Origin: Atribacterota bacterium
GTDB lineage: Bacteria > Atribacterota > Atribacteria > Atribacterales > Caldatribacteriaceae
Direction of reading: 5' to 3'
Assembly (NCBI GenBank): GCA_039638595.1
Contig: JBDIWM010000014.1
Location: 1 to 43,276 of the forward strand
DNA: 43,276 bases
In this document: in pieces, positions 34,676-40,345 of the stretch
Numbering within the stretch: the stretch's first letter is position 1
How the letters are laid out: every line of letters starts with the position of its first letter
The notes under the pieces: generated by a model
Database searches by the model: none
Told to the model about the DNA's origin: nothing
The model's input: the letters and a program-made list of their open reading frames with translations, nothing else
Translations under genes and position numbers: made by a program

Positions 34676-34702
34676 CAGAGGGGGTTACGACGACCCCCTC
34701 TG
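34676..34702 (+). terminator. Convergent stem-loop between the symporter and response regulator genes
   Basis: CAGAGGGGGT and ACCCCCTCTG form a perfect, very G+C-rich 10-bp stem with a 7-base loop. It sits just after the symporter stop codon and covers the last codons of the response regulator on the other strand. Neither side has a proper T tract, so it is a likely but atypical bidirectional terminator. Confidence 0.6.
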
Positions 34703-35347
34703 GGTGGTTTGTGCAGCCAGAAGCGCCAGCTCTACCCGATCTTTCACACCCAGCTTCTGGAAAATTCGACTCAGATGATTTTTCACGGTGCTCTCGCTAA
34801 TAAACAGTTTTTCGGCAATCTCTTTGTTTCCCATTCCCCGAATTACGAGCCGAACGATTTCCAATTCCCGCTCTGAAAGGAGGTCGCTCAACGGCGAAAG
34901 GTCCATTCCTTCGGCTCCGAATGGAATCCCCTTTTTCAGTTTCCCTAACACTTTAAGATAAACCTCTTCCCCCCAGAGCACTTCACCCTCAAGACAGGCT
35001 TTCAGACTTTTGAGGAGGACTTCTGGAGGACTGTGTTTCAGGATATATCCTCGAGCGCCTTCCCGGATAGCCTGGAAAATGATTTCTTCATCCTCTTCTA
35101 CGGTAAGCATTACAAAAAGCGCGGTGGGCATTCTTTCCTTGAGAATCCGCAAGAGTTCGACTCCATCCTTTCCCGGAAAATGCACATCGAGGAGCACCAG
35201 TTCTGCTCCAGAAGAAGGAAGTAGTTCCAGAGCTTCGCGGAAATTTCGTGCTGCACAAACCACCTCGTACTGGTCCTCAAGCAATTTTTTTAAACCTGCT
35301 AAAACAATCTGATGGTCATCAACCAGAGCAACCTTGACTTTGGCCAT
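34685..35347 (-). CDS. NarL/FixJ-type response regulator
   Basis: A 220-residue DNA-binding regulator. The receiver domain has the acidic pair D10/D11, phospho-acceptor D54 in LVLLDVHFPG, a T in MLTVEE and Lys in YILKHSP. A linker leads to a LuxR-type helix-turn-helix (LSERELEIVRLVIRGMGNKEIAE, then STVKNHL) at about 155-205. It follows the sensor kinase gene by 15 bp on the same strand, forming a two-component system. The targets are unknown; the divergent hydG-like gene is the nearest candidate. Confidence 0.94.
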   Translation of the reverse strand: MAKVKVALVDDHQIVLAGLKKLLEDQYEVVCAARNFREALELLPSSGAELVLLDVHFPGKDGVELLRILKERMPTALFVMLTVEEDEEIIFQAIREGARGYILKHSPPEVLLKSLKACLEGEVLWGEEVYLKVLGKLKKGIPFGAEGMDLSPLSDLLSERELEIVRLVIRGMGNKEIAEKLFISESTVKNHLSRIFQKLGVKDRVELALLAAQTTQRGSS

Positions 35348-35362: not shown

Positions 35363-36880
35363 TCACTGTAAAGGAATCTTGGCTTCAATCGTCAGGCCCT
35401 TTTGCGGAGAAGAAATAAGGCGCAGGCGACCTCGAGCCAGTTTGACTCGGTTTCGCATATTGTAAATCCCAAAATGTCCACCCTCTGCCTGCTGCACCGC
35501 AACACCCTTCTCCAATCCCTTCCCGTCATCCTTTATAGAAAGATATAAGAACTGCGCATCATCGTGGAGGGTAATCCAGACGTTTTTGGCCTGAGCATGC
35601 CGGATAACATTGGAAAGCGCTTCTCGAACCACGGAAGTGATAACCCGATAAACCCGGAACGAAACCGAGCGCACTCCTACCGTCACTTCTTGATGGATAA
35701 CAATCCCTGGATAGGAAAAGACGTTCACAATGCTTTCGAGCTCATTTTTCAAACGCAAGGCAGAAACGGGTTTTCCTGCCAGTTCCGAAAGAATAAAACG
35801 GGATTCCTCAATTCCCATCCTGGTCAGGCAATCGAGTTTTTCTAAGATTTCCTGCCAGACATCCCCACCATGTTGCGGTATATTGTTTTTCAAAAAGTAA
35901 AGATAGAGCTGAGAAGAAGCGAGAATCTGAGCCAATCCATCGTGGAGCTCTCGTGCCAACTGGTTTCTTTCCCGCTCCTGCACCAGCTTCTCATTTCTTC
36001 GAAAAAGGAAAATATTATCAAGACATGATTTTCCAAGCCGAGCAATCATGGACAAAACCAAATGCTCCAGGAGTTCCAATTCTTTATCGAGAAACGAAGT
36101 GAAGAGAAAACGCCAGCCCAGGTCACTCGCAACCGGAAGGAGAAGGAGCTTTCGCTCTTTACCCCTCCAGGAAATATCGAGTACCCTGGCTCTCTCCGCA
36201 GGAATAGCCTCAGGTGGTAAGCCCAACGTACAAAAACTGAGGGAACGGGGCCATTTTTCCCGAAAAGCCAGATATGGACGCCGCGGCGAAAGCTTAAATA
36301 CTGCACCCTGCTCAATTCCAAGAAGCATTTTCACGGCTAAAAATATTTTGGCAAAAACCAGCTTCTCGTCCATGAGATAATCATTCCCTTCAAACAGATT
36401 CACAATCTCGGAAAACACGAGGAGCAATTTCTCACGATTACGGCGTAGGATATTCTCCTCGACAAGAAGGGCAACGGCCGAAGCAAGCTTTTCAACCACC
36501 GCGATATCTTCACTCGAAAACGGCACATTGACCCGGTTGAGGTTCAAAACGCCAATCACTCGAGTACTGGTATCTCGCACTGGAAAAGAGAGCGAGTAAC
36601 GGTCTTCACGTCTTCGCCTGGATGCAAACCAAAGGGGGTCATTGCTATCGATGCACAGTGGTTTTCCACTTTCAAAGACCATTTCGGAAATACCCCGTAT
36701 ACGCCGGGAAAGTTCCCCAAAATGGGAAGGATGGAGGTTTTTACCGGCCACCAGAACCAACCCCTGTCCCTGCTCACCCTCAAGCAGTAAAGATCCACTG
36801 ATGCTCCTTGCCAAAGAAAGGGCCAGCTCCAGAATAAAATCCAGGTTTTGCTTCTCAAAGCTGGAAAATGGATACGACAA
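35363..36880 (-). CDS. Cytoplasmic GAF-domain histidine kinase (HisKA_3)
   Basis: About 505 residues with no membrane helix. Two GAF-like regions (about 15-165 and 180-290) precede the HisKA_3 dimerisation helix, with phospho-His313 in ARELHDGLAQ. A HATPase_c domain follows, with N-box EALSNVIRHA, DDGKGL and FGIYNMRNR. It probably senses a cytosolic small molecule or redox state. The longer frame to 37087 crosses the hydG leader and is not real: a TGTTATAAT -10 at 36920-36912 would start the mRNA near 36904, just before AAGGGGGG. After that the first in-frame choices are ATC at 36886 (8 bases on) or TTG at 36880; TTG is given. Confidence 0.88.
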   Translation of the reverse strand: MSYPFSSFEKQNLDFILELALSLARSISGSLLLEGEQGQGLVLVAGKNLHPSHFGELSRRIRGISEMVFESGKPLCIDSNDPLWFASRRRREDRYSLSFPVRDTSTRVIGVLNLNRVNVPFSSEDIAVVEKLASAVALLVEENILRRNREKLLLVFSEIVNLFEGNDYLMDEKLVFAKIFLAVKMLLGIEQGAVFKLSPRRPYLAFREKWPRSLSFCTLGLPPEAIPAERARVLDISWRGKERKLLLLPVASDLGWRFLFTSFLDKELELLEHLVLSMIARLGKSCLDNIFLFRRNEKLVQERERNQLARELHDGLAQILASSQLYLYFLKNNIPQHGGDVWQEILEKLDCLTRMGIEESRFILSELAGKPVSALRLKNELESIVNVFSYPGIVIHQEVTVGVRSVSFRVYRVITSVVREALSNVIRHAQAKNVWITLHDDAQFLYLSIKDDGKGLEKGVAVQQAEGGHFGIYNMRNRVKLARGRLRLISSPQKGLTIEAKIPLQ

Positions 36881-36911
36881 ACTGATCTCTAAATCCCCCC
36901 TTCGTGAGGGA

Positions 36912-36920
36912 ATTATAACA
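36912..36920 (-). promoter_or_regulatory. Extended -10 promoter of the two-component operon
   Basis: TGTTATAAT on the minus strand is a perfect extended -10. At 17 bp the -35 is a poor TGGTTT. The start at about 36904 implies a leader of about 20 nt. Confidence 0.55.
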
Positions 36921-36966
36921 CGCCCATTCCAAGAAAACCATTCGATAATCAATTTTTCGTGATATA

Positions 36967-36975
36967 TGATATAAT
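36967..36975 (+). promoter_or_regulatory. Extended -10 promoter of the hydG-like gene
   Basis: TGATATAAT is a perfect TGn-extended -10 with no obvious -35. The predicted start near 36982 falls exactly at the first base of the leader element described next. The -10 elements of this and the divergent kinase promoter are about 50 bp apart, so one bound regulator could affect both. Confidence 0.6.
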
Positions 36976-36981
36976 AGTGTA

Positions 36982-37068
36982 CACCTGCGGTGAGGAAAGG
37001 TTCTTTCTGAAACCAAGGGGAAAAGAAGGGAAAAATCCCGACTTGCCTTCCGCAGGTTGGGATTTTTT
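36982..37068 (+). promoter_or_regulatory. Candidate riboswitch/attenuator leader of the hydG-like gene
   Basis: The leader ends in a strong intrinsic terminator. AAAAATCCCGAC (37031-37042) pairs with GTTGGGATTTTT (37056-37067, one G-U pair), with TGC/GCA closing the loop, followed by the T run and 18 bases later by the ATG. At the very start of the transcript ACCTGCGG (36983-36990) is perfectly complementary to CCGCAGGT (37050-37057), which spans the terminator loop and inner 3' arm. CACC-tgc-GGTG and GGTT/AAACC hairpins, and GGG/CCC and GAAGG/CCTTC pairings that compete for the terminator 5' arm, offer further alternatives. This is the layout of a conditional terminator or loop-loop pseudoknot. 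I could not match it to TPP, SAM, preQ1, cobalamin, fluoride or other classes I know. Confidence 0.65.
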
Positions 37069-37085
37069 TATGGGAGGGACAAACC

Positions 37086-38561
37086 ATGTCTCAGGTGGCA
37101 TCGCTATCGGCCAAAGAATGGATGAACCGAATCATCAAGGAAGAAGAGGTGGAAAAGTACCTGTCGGACGGAAGGGACTTTATCGATGACCAAGGTATCG
37201 AAACACTGCTCCGGCAACATGCTCGTCCTGACCCAAAGCAGGTACGGGAAATCCTGGAAAAATCGCTCCACCTAGAACGTCTTGAACCAGAGGAGACAGC
37301 CACACTCCTCAACGTTGAAGACCCAGAAATGTGGGAAGAAATGTTCGCCACAGCGAAAGAAGTGAAAAGAAAAGTTTATGGAGACCGAATTGTTACTTTT
37401 GCCCCCCTTTATTGTAGCAATTACTGTGTGAATAACTGCCTATACTGTGGTTTCCGTCGGGACAACCATCTCCAAAAAAGGCGGCAACTGACCATCGAGG
37501 AAGTGCGCCGAGAAGCGGAAGCTCTGGTGTCTCTGGGACACAAGCGCCTGATCATGGTCTACGGAGAGCATCCCACATCCGATGTGGACTACATCGCTCA
37601 AACCATTCAAACCGTGTACGAAACCAAGGTCGGTCATGGTGAAATTCGCCGGGTCAATGTGAACGCTGCTCCTCTGGACATTGCCCGGTACCGAGTGCTT
37701 AAAGAAGTGGGTATCGGGACATTCCAGGTCTTTCAGGAAACATACCATCACGAAACGTATCGTAAGCTCCATCCTTCTGGTATTAAGGCTCACTACCGGT
37801 GGCGGCTCTATGCCCTGCATCGAGCCCAGGAAGCTGGTATTGATGATGTTGCCATCGGAGCTCTTTTTGGACTCTATAACTGGAAGTTTGAAGTCATGGG
37901 ACTGCTCTACCATACCATCGACCTGGAGAACCATTTTGGGGGAGTGGGACCACATACCATTTCCTTTCCCCGTCTGGAACCTGCCGTCAACACCCCTCTG
38001 GCCCAAGAAAGCCAATATCGAGTTTCCGACCGAGATTTCAAAAGACTGGTTACGGTCATCCGCCTCTCCGTCCCCTATGCTGGGATGATCATCACTGCCC
38101 GAGAACCAGCCCATGTGCGCCGGGAAGTGATTCCGGTGGGATGTACGCAAACCGATGCCTCCACCCGCATTGGCATTGGTGCTTACAGTGAGCGCTACGG
38201 TGAACAGGAATTGGAACGGCAGCAGTTTGAGATTAACGACCCTCGCTCTCTGGATGAAGTGGTGCGCGAACTTGCCAACATGGGATACATCACTTCGTTC
38301 TGCACCGCAGACTATCGCTGTGGGAGAACCGGCAAGTACTTCATGGACATCACCAAAAAGGGGAAAATTCACCATTTCTGCATGCCGAACGCCATCCTAA
38401 CTTTCAAAGAGTACCTCCTGGACTACGCTTCACCAGAAACAAAGGAAACTGGAGAAAAAATCATCGCCCAGAAATTTGCCGAACTCGACGACCGACTCAA
38501 ACCCCTGATCACCGAGTACCTCCAAAGAATCGAAAATGGAGAACGAGACTTGCGAATTTGA
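37086..38561 (+). CDS. hydG: HydG-like radical SAM tyrosine lyase with altered C-terminal cluster motif
   Basis: A 491-residue protein, the length of HydG. The radical SAM cluster motif is C114-x3-C118-x2-C121 in YCSNYCVNNCLYCGF, the typical HydG form. HydG cleaves tyrosine to make the CO/CN-bearing iron synthon of the [FeFe]-hydrogenase H-cluster. Its C-terminal domain normally binds a second cluster through C-x2-C-x22-C. Here the first and last Cys (406, 432) are in register, but the middle one is Asp409 (FCTADYRCGRTG), and a new Cys412 lies three residues on. The gene may therefore be a functional variant or a paralog with another product. SD GGGAGGG precedes the ATG. No hydE, hydF or hydrogenase gene is in the window. 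Confidence 0.9.
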   Translation: MSQVASLSAKEWMNRIIKEEEVEKYLSDGRDFIDDQGIETLLRQHARPDPKQVREILEKSLHLERLEPEETATLLNVEDPEMWEEMFATAKEVKRKVYGDRIVTFAPLYCSNYCVNNCLYCGFRRDNHLQKRRQLTIEEVRREAEALVSLGHKRLIMVYGEHPTSDVDYIAQTIQTVYETKVGHGEIRRVNVNAAPLDIARYRVLKEVGIGTFQVFQETYHHETYRKLHPSGIKAHYRWRLYALHRAQEAGIDDVAIGALFGLYNWKFEVMGLLYHTIDLENHFGGVGPHTISFPRLEPAVNTPLAQESQYRVSDRDFKRLVTVIRLSVPYAGMIITAREPAHVRREVIPVGCTQTDASTRIGIGAYSERYGEQELERQQFEINDPRSLDEVVRELANMGYITSFCTADYRCGRTGKYFMDITKKGKIHHFCMPNAILTFKEYLLDYASPETKETGEKIIAQKFAELDDRLKPLITEYLQRIENGERDLRI

Positions 38562-38868
38562 AATTTGGCTCCGTCTCGTACGGGAATCCAGTAGCGTAGG
38601 ATTATCTGGTAACCTCCTGAACCAAATCGCTCAGGAGGTAGAGAAGCGCTATGGAGCAAGAATCTGGTTTGCGGAAATCCTAGGAAAACGATGGTCGTAT
38701 CGCTCAGGGGTAAGACAGGATTTTCCCGTCTCGCCCCTGAACCATATTCCCATTACACCGTGTTTTGGATTGGTTGCAGAGGGGTGGGAAATGGTCCCCG
38801 AAATGGTCCGCGCTGCGCTTCTCTCTTTTTTACGGGATCATCTGGCATCAGAGCAGGACAAAGGCTGA
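38536..38868 (+). CDS. Hypothetical protein overlapping hydG
   Basis: A 110-residue protein of unknown function that starts inside the last nine codons of the hydG-like gene (26-nt overlap, different frame), so translation probably depends on hydG. No Shine-Dalgarno is evident. The sequence is amphipathic, with an N-terminal helix (IWLRLVRESSSV), a middle strand/loop region (GARIWFAEILGKRWSYRSG) and C-terminal helix (EMVPEMVRAALLSFLRDHL). There are no Cys pairs apart from single residues, no signal peptide and no membrane helix. It could be a partner of the radical SAM enzyme. The frame extends to within 10 bp of the convergent radical SAM gene. Confidence 0.6.
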   Translation: MENETCEFEIWLRLVRESSSVGLSGNLLNQIAQEVEKRYGARIWFAEILGKRWSYRSGVRQDFPVSPLNHIPITPCFGLVAEGWEMVPEMVRAALLSFLRDHLASEQDKG

Positions 38869-38873
38869 GGATA

Positions 38874-38890
38874 CTCTCTATAAAAGAGAG
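38874..38890 (+). terminator. Small convergent hairpin
   Basis: CTCTCT and AGAGAG make a 6-bp stem with loop ATAAA, enclosed by AGGAT/ATCCT. It lies in the convergent gap and covers the stop codon of the radical SAM gene on the minus strand. There is no T tract; a weak candidate for a shared transcript end. Confidence 0.3.
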
Positions 38891-40023
38891 AGCTGCAATC
38901 CTCTAGTAAACCGCTTACCCCGAAAGAGCACAAATGGAAGAGCCTTTTCCACCTGGATTCCCAGTGCCTTCAGCGCCTCTGGCTGAGTCAGCGGTTCGCG
39001 GACTCGGATGGTCATGATTTTTCGTGCCGATACCGGTCCAATTCCTGGAACTCGAACGAGTGCTTCAAAGGGGGCTTGGTTCACCTCCACCGGAAAGAAC
39101 TCAGGATGTCGCACTGCCCAGGAAGTCTTGGGGTCAACGGTAAGCGGAAAGTTCCCTTCTCTGTCAAAGCACAATTCTTCAAAACCAAAACCGTATCGCC
39201 GCAACAGGAAATCCGCCTGGTACAGACGATGTTCTCGCCATGTTGAAGTAGGCGGCAGGTCTTCAAACGGTGTTCCTGCAATTGGCTGAAAAGCACTGTA
39301 ATACACCCGAGCCAGTTTCATTTCCCGGTAAAGGAGCGAAGTGGTTTGCATGATTTCCCGGTCGGTCTCCCCACTCGCACCGACCACAAATTGAGTGGTA
39401 AAGTCAAAACGAGCCACTCTTTTATCCTTGAGGCACTTCAAATAACGCAATGTATTCCAGATATCTTCGAAATTCTTCTCAGGGGCAATGCATCGCAGGG
39501 CTGAAGGAGTTGGCGCCTCCAGATTCACCGACACCCTTGTGCTCAAGCGAACCGCCTCCTCAATGAAGTCAGCACTCACCTCAGGAAGAATCTTGAGGTG
39601 AATATACCCACGGAACTGCATCTTAAAGCGTAAGATTTCGACCACTTTCATCATTTCCGTCATGGTGCGGGCCGCGTCACGCTCCACTGCGGAACTCAGG
39701 AAAAGTCCCCGCACCATCCCCTGATGGTACAATGTGGCAAAAAGTCGCACCAGCTCTACAGCGGTAAAAGAAGCAGCTTCTTTGTGACACCGATCTACCC
39801 GGTTGACACAGTAAAAGCAGTTATGAATGCACCGATTGGAGAGAAGAATTTTCAAAACGTTCACCCGTTGCCCGTCCGGAAGGGTCACGGGATAAATCCA
39901 GTGACCCAGGGGGTGCTTGGTGCGCGATTCGCCTCCAAAGCAGGATCCACAGAGGTCAAAGCGTGCTCCATAACCCAAAATGGCTATTTTTTGACTCAAC
40001 ACTCTCTCATCCCTCTTGACCAT
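38878..40023 (-). CDS. Radical SAM protein with C-terminal helix-hairpin-helix (putative DNA modification/repair)
   Basis: A 381-residue protein. An N-terminal CGSC is followed by a radical SAM core with CIHNCFYC (Cx3Cx2C) after LLSNR. The core continues through VNLEAPTPSAL and FVVGASGETDREIM. The C-terminus has a helix-hairpin-helix, VPGIGPVSARKIM, typical of DNA-binding proteins. This combination fits the family annotated as putative DNA modification/repair radical SAM protein, usually linked to a small DUF4130 partner. The partner is not adjacent here. ATG 40023 has GTGAGG upstream; the frame to 40113 would run through the leader hairpin and is rejected. The chemistry of the family has not been established as far as I know. 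Confidence 0.87.
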   Translation of the reverse strand: MVKRDERVLSQKIAILGYGARFDLCGSCFGGESRTKHPLGHWIYPVTLPDGQRVNVLKILLSNRCIHNCFYCVNRVDRCHKEAASFTAVELVRLFATLYHQGMVRGLFLSSAVERDAARTMTEMMKVVEILRFKMQFRGYIHLKILPEVSADFIEEAVRLSTRVSVNLEAPTPSALRCIAPEKNFEDIWNTLRYLKCLKDKRVARFDFTTQFVVGASGETDREIMQTTSLLYREMKLARVYYSAFQPIAGTPFEDLPPTSTWREHRLYQADFLLRRYGFGFEELCFDREGNFPLTVDPKTSWAVRHPEFFPVEVNQAPFEALVRVPGIGPVSARKIMTIRVREPLTQPEALKALGIQVEKALPFVLFRGKRFTRGLQLSLL

Positions 40024-40059
40024 GATGACCTCACCACAGATTTCCCAATTGTGCAAGCT

Positions 40060-40087
40060 CCTTCTTGAATTCGAAAATTCAAGAAGG
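40060..40087 (-). promoter_or_regulatory. Perfect 12-bp UUCG hairpin in the radical SAM leader
   Basis: CCTTCTTGAATT and AATTCAAGAAGG are perfect arms around four bases, read as TTCG on the minus strand, an exceptionally stable RNA tetraloop. It is 36 bases upstream of the ATG at 40023 and leaves the ribosome binding site free. No T run follows, so it is not an ordinary terminator. It may be an mRNA stabiliser, a protein-binding site, or at DNA level a palindromic operator. Confidence 0.7.
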
Positions 40088-40345
40088 TCACCTTTCTCTC
40101 CCCTAGCTCCCACCTTTCTTCCTTGAGGAGAGCGACTTGAACATCACCTCAAAGCCACACTACAGGGGAAAATACCCTTGGTAAAGGGATCAGCAATATC
40201 CAGCCAGTAATCCCTCTATAGTATAAACCATTCACATCAAAAGGACGAATCCTATCCCCGTTGAGCTGGAATAAAAACCATCTTTTCATGTTTCCTTTCT
40301 AATGATAAGATTCTATGAAGAGATACAGAAAGAGGAGGTCCACCA
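40088..40345 (+). other. Divergent intergenic region before the export operon
   Basis: Separates the minus-strand radical SAM gene from the plus-strand adaptor gene. An imperfect CCCTTGGTAAAGGG dyad lies near 40167-40180, and AT-rich TATAGTATAAACC near 40217 could hold -10 elements in either direction. No convincing -35 pairs were found. A TAAGAT about 40 bp before the adaptor start is another weak -10. No gene is seen. Confidence 0.4.

Follow-up and report, generated by a model that had tools for sequence, protein, structure and literature searches.

The leader RNA described here precedes hydG (37086–38561, plus strand) in the window, by which we mean the whole 43,276-nucleotide stretch of Caldatribacteriaceae DNA that was analysed. 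Sequence comparison retrieved Candidatus Caldatribacterium and other Atribacteria as relatives, which places the window in an Atribacterota genome. The preliminary description had called this gene hydG-like, and its product indeed scores well above the cut-off for HydG, the radical SAM maturase of the [FeFe] hydrogenase H-cluster (TIGR03955, 493.5 bits against 312). A TATAAT sequence at 36970–36975 (plus strand) may act as the −10 element of a promoter with a predicted transcription start at about 36981, so that the RNA would begin, at its own 5′-end, with the leader element; the ribosome binding site, GGGAGGG, lies at 37072–37078 on the same strand. The reading frame of a minus-strand ORF (35363–37087) encoding a GAF-domain sensor kinase of the NarX/NarL type crosses the leader, and the true start of this gene is probably near 36910; the response regulator of the kinase is encoded at 34685–35347. 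At the other end of hydG, a plus-strand ORF of 110 amino acids (38536–38868) overlaps the gene by 26 nt and has no Pfam or NCBIfam match, and the minus strand at 38878–40113 encodes a putative DNA modification/repair radical SAM protein (TIGR03916, 324 bits, under the cut-off of 343.5).

Just 5′ of the ribosome binding site, where a strong terminator had been proposed, the plus strand carries an intrinsic terminator at 37029–37069, with an 18-bp stem (37029–37046/37052–37069), a U-run at 37063–37069 and a predicted folding energy of −24.8 kcal/mol (z −3.44). A simple terminator scan did not pick it up. A hairpin with a U-run is present in 42 of the 46 relatives tested. The 5′ segment reported to complement the terminator loop and inner arm also proved to be where it had been placed. 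This strand, ACCUGCGG (36983–36990, plus strand), can form 8 bp with CCGCAGGU (37050–37057, plus strand), which extends from the terminator loop into the upper part of the 3′ arm, and the two segments, ACCTGCGG and CCGCAGGT, are perfect complements, a match with a probability of about 0.005 to 0.01 in dinucleotide shuffles of the hydG leader.

The 5′ strand overlaps two helices, P1 and P1b, of a second structure, a hairpin of about 36 nt at 36984–37019 (plus strand; −12.7 kcal/mol), which is the conserved core of the element. The preliminary description had noted mutually exclusive side hairpins; what it under-described is that such a side hairpin is this core, which is not visible from the window alone. 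Purine-rich internal loops divide the core into three short helices; in order, it comprises P1 (36984–36986/37017–37019, CCU/GGG), an internal loop of GC/AA, P1b (36989–36991/37012–37014, GGU/ACC), a purine loop of GA/GAA, and P2 (36994–36999/37003–37008), all on the plus strand. The purine loops are near-invariant over several phyla, and covariation across 31 to 65 relatives supports the helices. In an alignment of 31 sequences, 92% of pair cells are standard, falling to 71% or less on sliding by a single column, and two-sided changes occupy 52 cells compared with 21 in shuffles (0 of 500 reached the observed number); two related measures, the pairs showing any two-sided change and the further pair types, did not exceed the shuffles in this set. 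Among 65 relatives parsed by eye, a procedure biased towards the structure, 50 have C-G and 12 have U-A as the outer pair of P1, and 47 have G-C and 15 have A-U as the middle pair of P1b. Three divergent copies from upstream of TM1266 genes were folded, and all gave the same rod, in which a helix, a 2×2 purine loop, a helix of 3 to 5 bp, a purine loop and a further helix follow one another. A CC-UGC-GG mini-hairpin at the leader 5′-end was rejected, as relatives do not keep it.

The same core lies 5′ of hydG in 13 Atribacterota genomes. The motif CCUGCGGYGAGGA-hairpin-UCUGARRCCAAGGG, followed by a terminator with the complement of CCUGCGG in its loop, is common to the hydG leaders of the window's own family and of two neighbouring ones (12 genomes besides the window's), which otherwise vary greatly in sequence and length. 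When 84,980 species were scanned with this pattern, the motif turned up in Atribacterota and three further named groups: Omnitrophota, TA06, where it is flanked by an [FeFe] hydrogenase subunit gene and TM1266-aspA-hydF-hydG, and Lentisphaerae, where it precedes TM1266 and hydF. Seven other pattern matches, at which no terminator was seen, and the one match in a viral scan were judged to be chance. Two covariance models, R1 and R2, were then run on whole genomes from Atribacterota (50) and from the TA06 (35), Omnitrophota (285) and Lentisphaerae/Verrucomicrobiota (338) phyla, and on 386 genomes spread across the domain, a sample that covers part of the domain and consists mostly of MAGs. Relatives were found in Omnitrophota, TA06, Verrucomicrobiota/Lentisphaerota, Thermotogota-like and further lineages. 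[FeFe]-hydrogenase genes adjoin 48 of the 54 distinct matches, 47 of which immediately precede TM1266 or hydG, while one directly follows a hydrogenase gene at a contig end; the other six, beside which no hydrogenase genes were found, were judged to be chance, roughly ten such matches being expected at the same threshold. Because the probability that a random match lands in the 350 nt preceding such a gene is only about 1e-4, as estimated from genome size, the linkage to [FeFe]-hydrogenase genes is beyond doubt. About 30 diverse genomes were read 5′ of their TM1266 genes, and many have divergent copies there (e.g., CCUGAGAUGAAGGGAGUAAUCCUAACAUCAAGGGAGG), among them Thermotogota-like genomes, whose TM1266 closely matches the T. 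maritima protein 2NZC. One Atribacterota family whose hydG at first seemed to lack the RNA has a divergent copy 5′ of its TM1266 operon. A model built on the broad set, R3, detected the element in 19 of 32 TM1266 leaders (E < 0.05), of which 14 belonged to its training set; the non-training leaders gave 5 of 18.

The core hairpin and the antiterminator are mutually exclusive, and the predicted minimum-energy fold of the hydG leader changes with transcript length. The core hairpin is predicted up to 37051, the antiterminator is favoured when the transcript ends at 37055–37059 (−28.7 versus −23.5 kcal/mol), and from 37062 onward the core hairpin together with the terminator is the predicted fold; these energies ignore pseudoknots and kinetics. 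The decision would thus depend on whether the hairpin resists invasion during a window of a few nucleotides. Across 59 leaders, both strands of the hairpin show complementarity to the downstream leader (Fisher p of 4e-9 for the 5′ strand and 1e-4 for the 3′ strand), and an antiterminator partner is significant in 20 individual leaders (either strand, p < 0.02). The strand used is the 5′ one in Atribacterota, whereas other lineages have a 3′ strand that either pairs with the terminator or belongs to the Shine-Dalgarno sequence: two leaders have a 3′ strand complementary to the 5′ arm of the terminator over a long stretch, two others have 11 bp between the 3′ strand and the terminator, and in four more the Shine-Dalgarno sequence is inside the 3′ strand. 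Because its strands serve these different elements, we infer that in all versions the formed hairpin most likely means that expression is off. At one further locus no terminator was seen, and a hairpin of UCCUUUUA and UUAAAAGGA could mask the Shine-Dalgarno sequence of TM1266, which would be a third type of platform.

These alternative pairings suggest a mechanism in which the core hairpin, located at the transcript 5′-end, is the earliest structure to fold. An effector that kept it closed would make its strands unavailable to the downstream leader, so that the terminator would fold and hydG would not be transcribed; in other lineages the closed hairpin would hide the Shine-Dalgarno sequence within its 3′ strand. 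Without the effector, 36983–36990 would be captured by the emerging 37050–37057 segment, and this pairing would occupy the upper part of the terminator's 3′ arm, thereby favoring read-through. The 8-nt pairing is therefore the antiterminator of one lineage's expression platform and not the core that defines the class. An opposite polarity, in which 36983–36990 and the terminator loop form a pseudoknot belonging to the ligand- or protein-bound fold, so that bound RNA reads through as in the terminator-embedded HMP-PP riboswitch, would fit the finding that this complementarity occurs in every Atribacterota hydG leader found and in some from Omnitrophota. We consider it improbable, however, because many members, lacking the pairing, rely on the 3′ strand or the Shine-Dalgarno sequence, and because the covariation is seen in the local hairpin and not in the pseudoknot. 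That the terminator is an ordinary constitutive one, with complementarity arising by chance, is a far more remote prospect still; the terminator alone is thermodynamically dominant, but conservation, covariation and gene linkage all contradict this explanation.

A search of the window and 33 relative loci against Rfam 15 matched no family at the gathering cut-off other than two tRNAs in the window, and at relaxed E-values no family recurred at the motif, in keeping with the original impression that the leader belongs to no known class. The literature searched, with the RNA-motif lists of subscription journals outside its scope, contains no description of this RNA, of RNA-level control of [FeFe]-hydrogenase maturation or of an RNA element for the TM1266 family. 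Since the hairpin has no Rfam match, is conserved 5′ of maturation genes in several phyla and is seemingly built to stop expression, it constitutes a new regulatory RNA family. The proposal of a new riboswitch or attenuator is thus borne out by the Rfam result, conservation, covariation and gene association. In PyrR attenuation, a leader hairpin acts as an anti-antiterminator that controls a terminator, and the first gene of the operon often encodes the binding protein. The RNA described here is similar in having a leader hairpin as putative anti-antiterminator, a candidate binding protein often encoded by the first gene and terminator control; it differs in its genes, in having no match to the PyrR sequence or model and in the existence of versions that mask the Shine-Dalgarno sequence. 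It is not itself a PyrR binding site (RF00515; 16.2 bits with an E-value of 4.9, cut-off 54), and hydG rather than pyrimidine genes lies downstream. The HMP-PP (thiS) riboswitch places its aptamer inside the terminator, and its ligand turns expression on (PMC6478431). Our RNA resembles it as a small RNA intertwined with a terminator, with a possible pseudoknot and a narrow co-transcriptional decision window, but its core is upstream of the terminator and the terminators that follow are varied; identity with this thiamin-gene element was rejected on the absence of an Rfam match and the different genes. ANTAR-type attenuation was dropped because the core is a single hairpin, and classic leader-peptide attenuation because no leader ORF was evident on reading.

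The preferred candidate for the effector is TM1266 (TIGR03959, PDB 2NZC), the protein family whose genes the RNA precedes and which is annotated as a putative hydrogenase system regulator. A protein-responsive attenuator is expected to be accompanied by its cognate protein wherever it occurs, and TM1266 follows this pattern. Among the 386 genomes, HydG is present in 105, TM1266 in 53 and the RNA at hydrogenase genes in 18, and 16 of these 18 have TM1266, the two exceptions being incomplete MAGs whose genus-mates have it. Of 19 RNA-bearing genomes inspected, 18 encode a TM1266 that scores above its cut-off. The RNA occurs in 16 of 46 HydG genomes with TM1266 versus 2 of 59 without (Fisher p 2e-5, not corrected for shared ancestry), and inheritance of a single regulon from a common ancestor could also account for the co-occurrence. 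The Caldatribacteriaceae have their TM1266 gene at another site, where the RNA is absent. The protein has about 87 residues and lacks a separate DNA-binding domain, and its predicted structure (pLDDT 96) matches 2NZC and then NikR/ACT regulatory domains; such a stand-alone regulatory domain is a fair candidate for a regulator acting on RNA. We infer that the effector may be this small ACT/NikR-like protein, probably with a bound small molecule, acting in the manner of PyrR. For the reading as a whole, a new family of cis-acting leader RNAs whose effector-held hairpin switches [FeFe]-hydrogenase maturation genes off, with TM1266 as the likeliest effector, we estimate a probability of about 0.48.

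The choice between TM1266 and direct metabolite binding is close to even, with TM1266 slightly favoured. The RNA has the conserved, structured leader and mutually exclusive regulatory fold of riboswitches in general, and its core could be a small aptamer for a metabolite or ion of H-cluster assembly, binding of which would stabilize the hairpin and cause termination or Shine-Dalgarno masking, with TM1266 simply one of the regulated genes of this pathway. The compact core with its near-invariant purine loops, the two expression platforms and the associated ECF S-component and TonB receptor genes, a context after TM1266 that is also typical of metabolite riboswitches, make this a possible, if tentative, account. 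Against it, the RNA is confined to TM1266-bearing genomes, R3 finding it in 0 of 38 hydG leaders of genomes without TM1266 (1.8 kb upstream of hydG scanned), and no pocket is evident in the core, which could be simply a rod-like hairpin. Somewhat less likely is the specific version in which the RNAs of these several phyla form a new riboswitch class that itself senses a compound of H-cluster assembly and turns hydrogenase maturation off by termination or Shine-Dalgarno masking; the compound could be an iron-carbonyl/cyanide precursor or a precursor that the associated ECF/TonB transporters import. The occurrence of the RNA upstream of TM1266 in Atribacterota lineages with no detected HydG speaks against a HydG-specific ligand, such as the tyrosine suggested in the preliminary description.

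The RNA family offers a direct handle on how H2 metabolism is set in anaerobes, and it gives TM1266, an unexplained protein, a testable role. It also points to transport genes as a possible source of H-cluster parts for lineages in which HydG was not detected; in Atribacterota of this kind, an ECF S-component gene follows TM1266. At three such loci, from Atribacterota families without detected HydG, an [FeFe]-hydrogenase-like gene, the RNA, TM1266 and the ECF transporter S-component gene occur in this order, with formate dehydrogenase nearby. At three other loci, TM1266 is followed by a TonB-dependent receptor gene (assigned by sequence only at one of them), and the compound that the receptor carries may hint at the signal.
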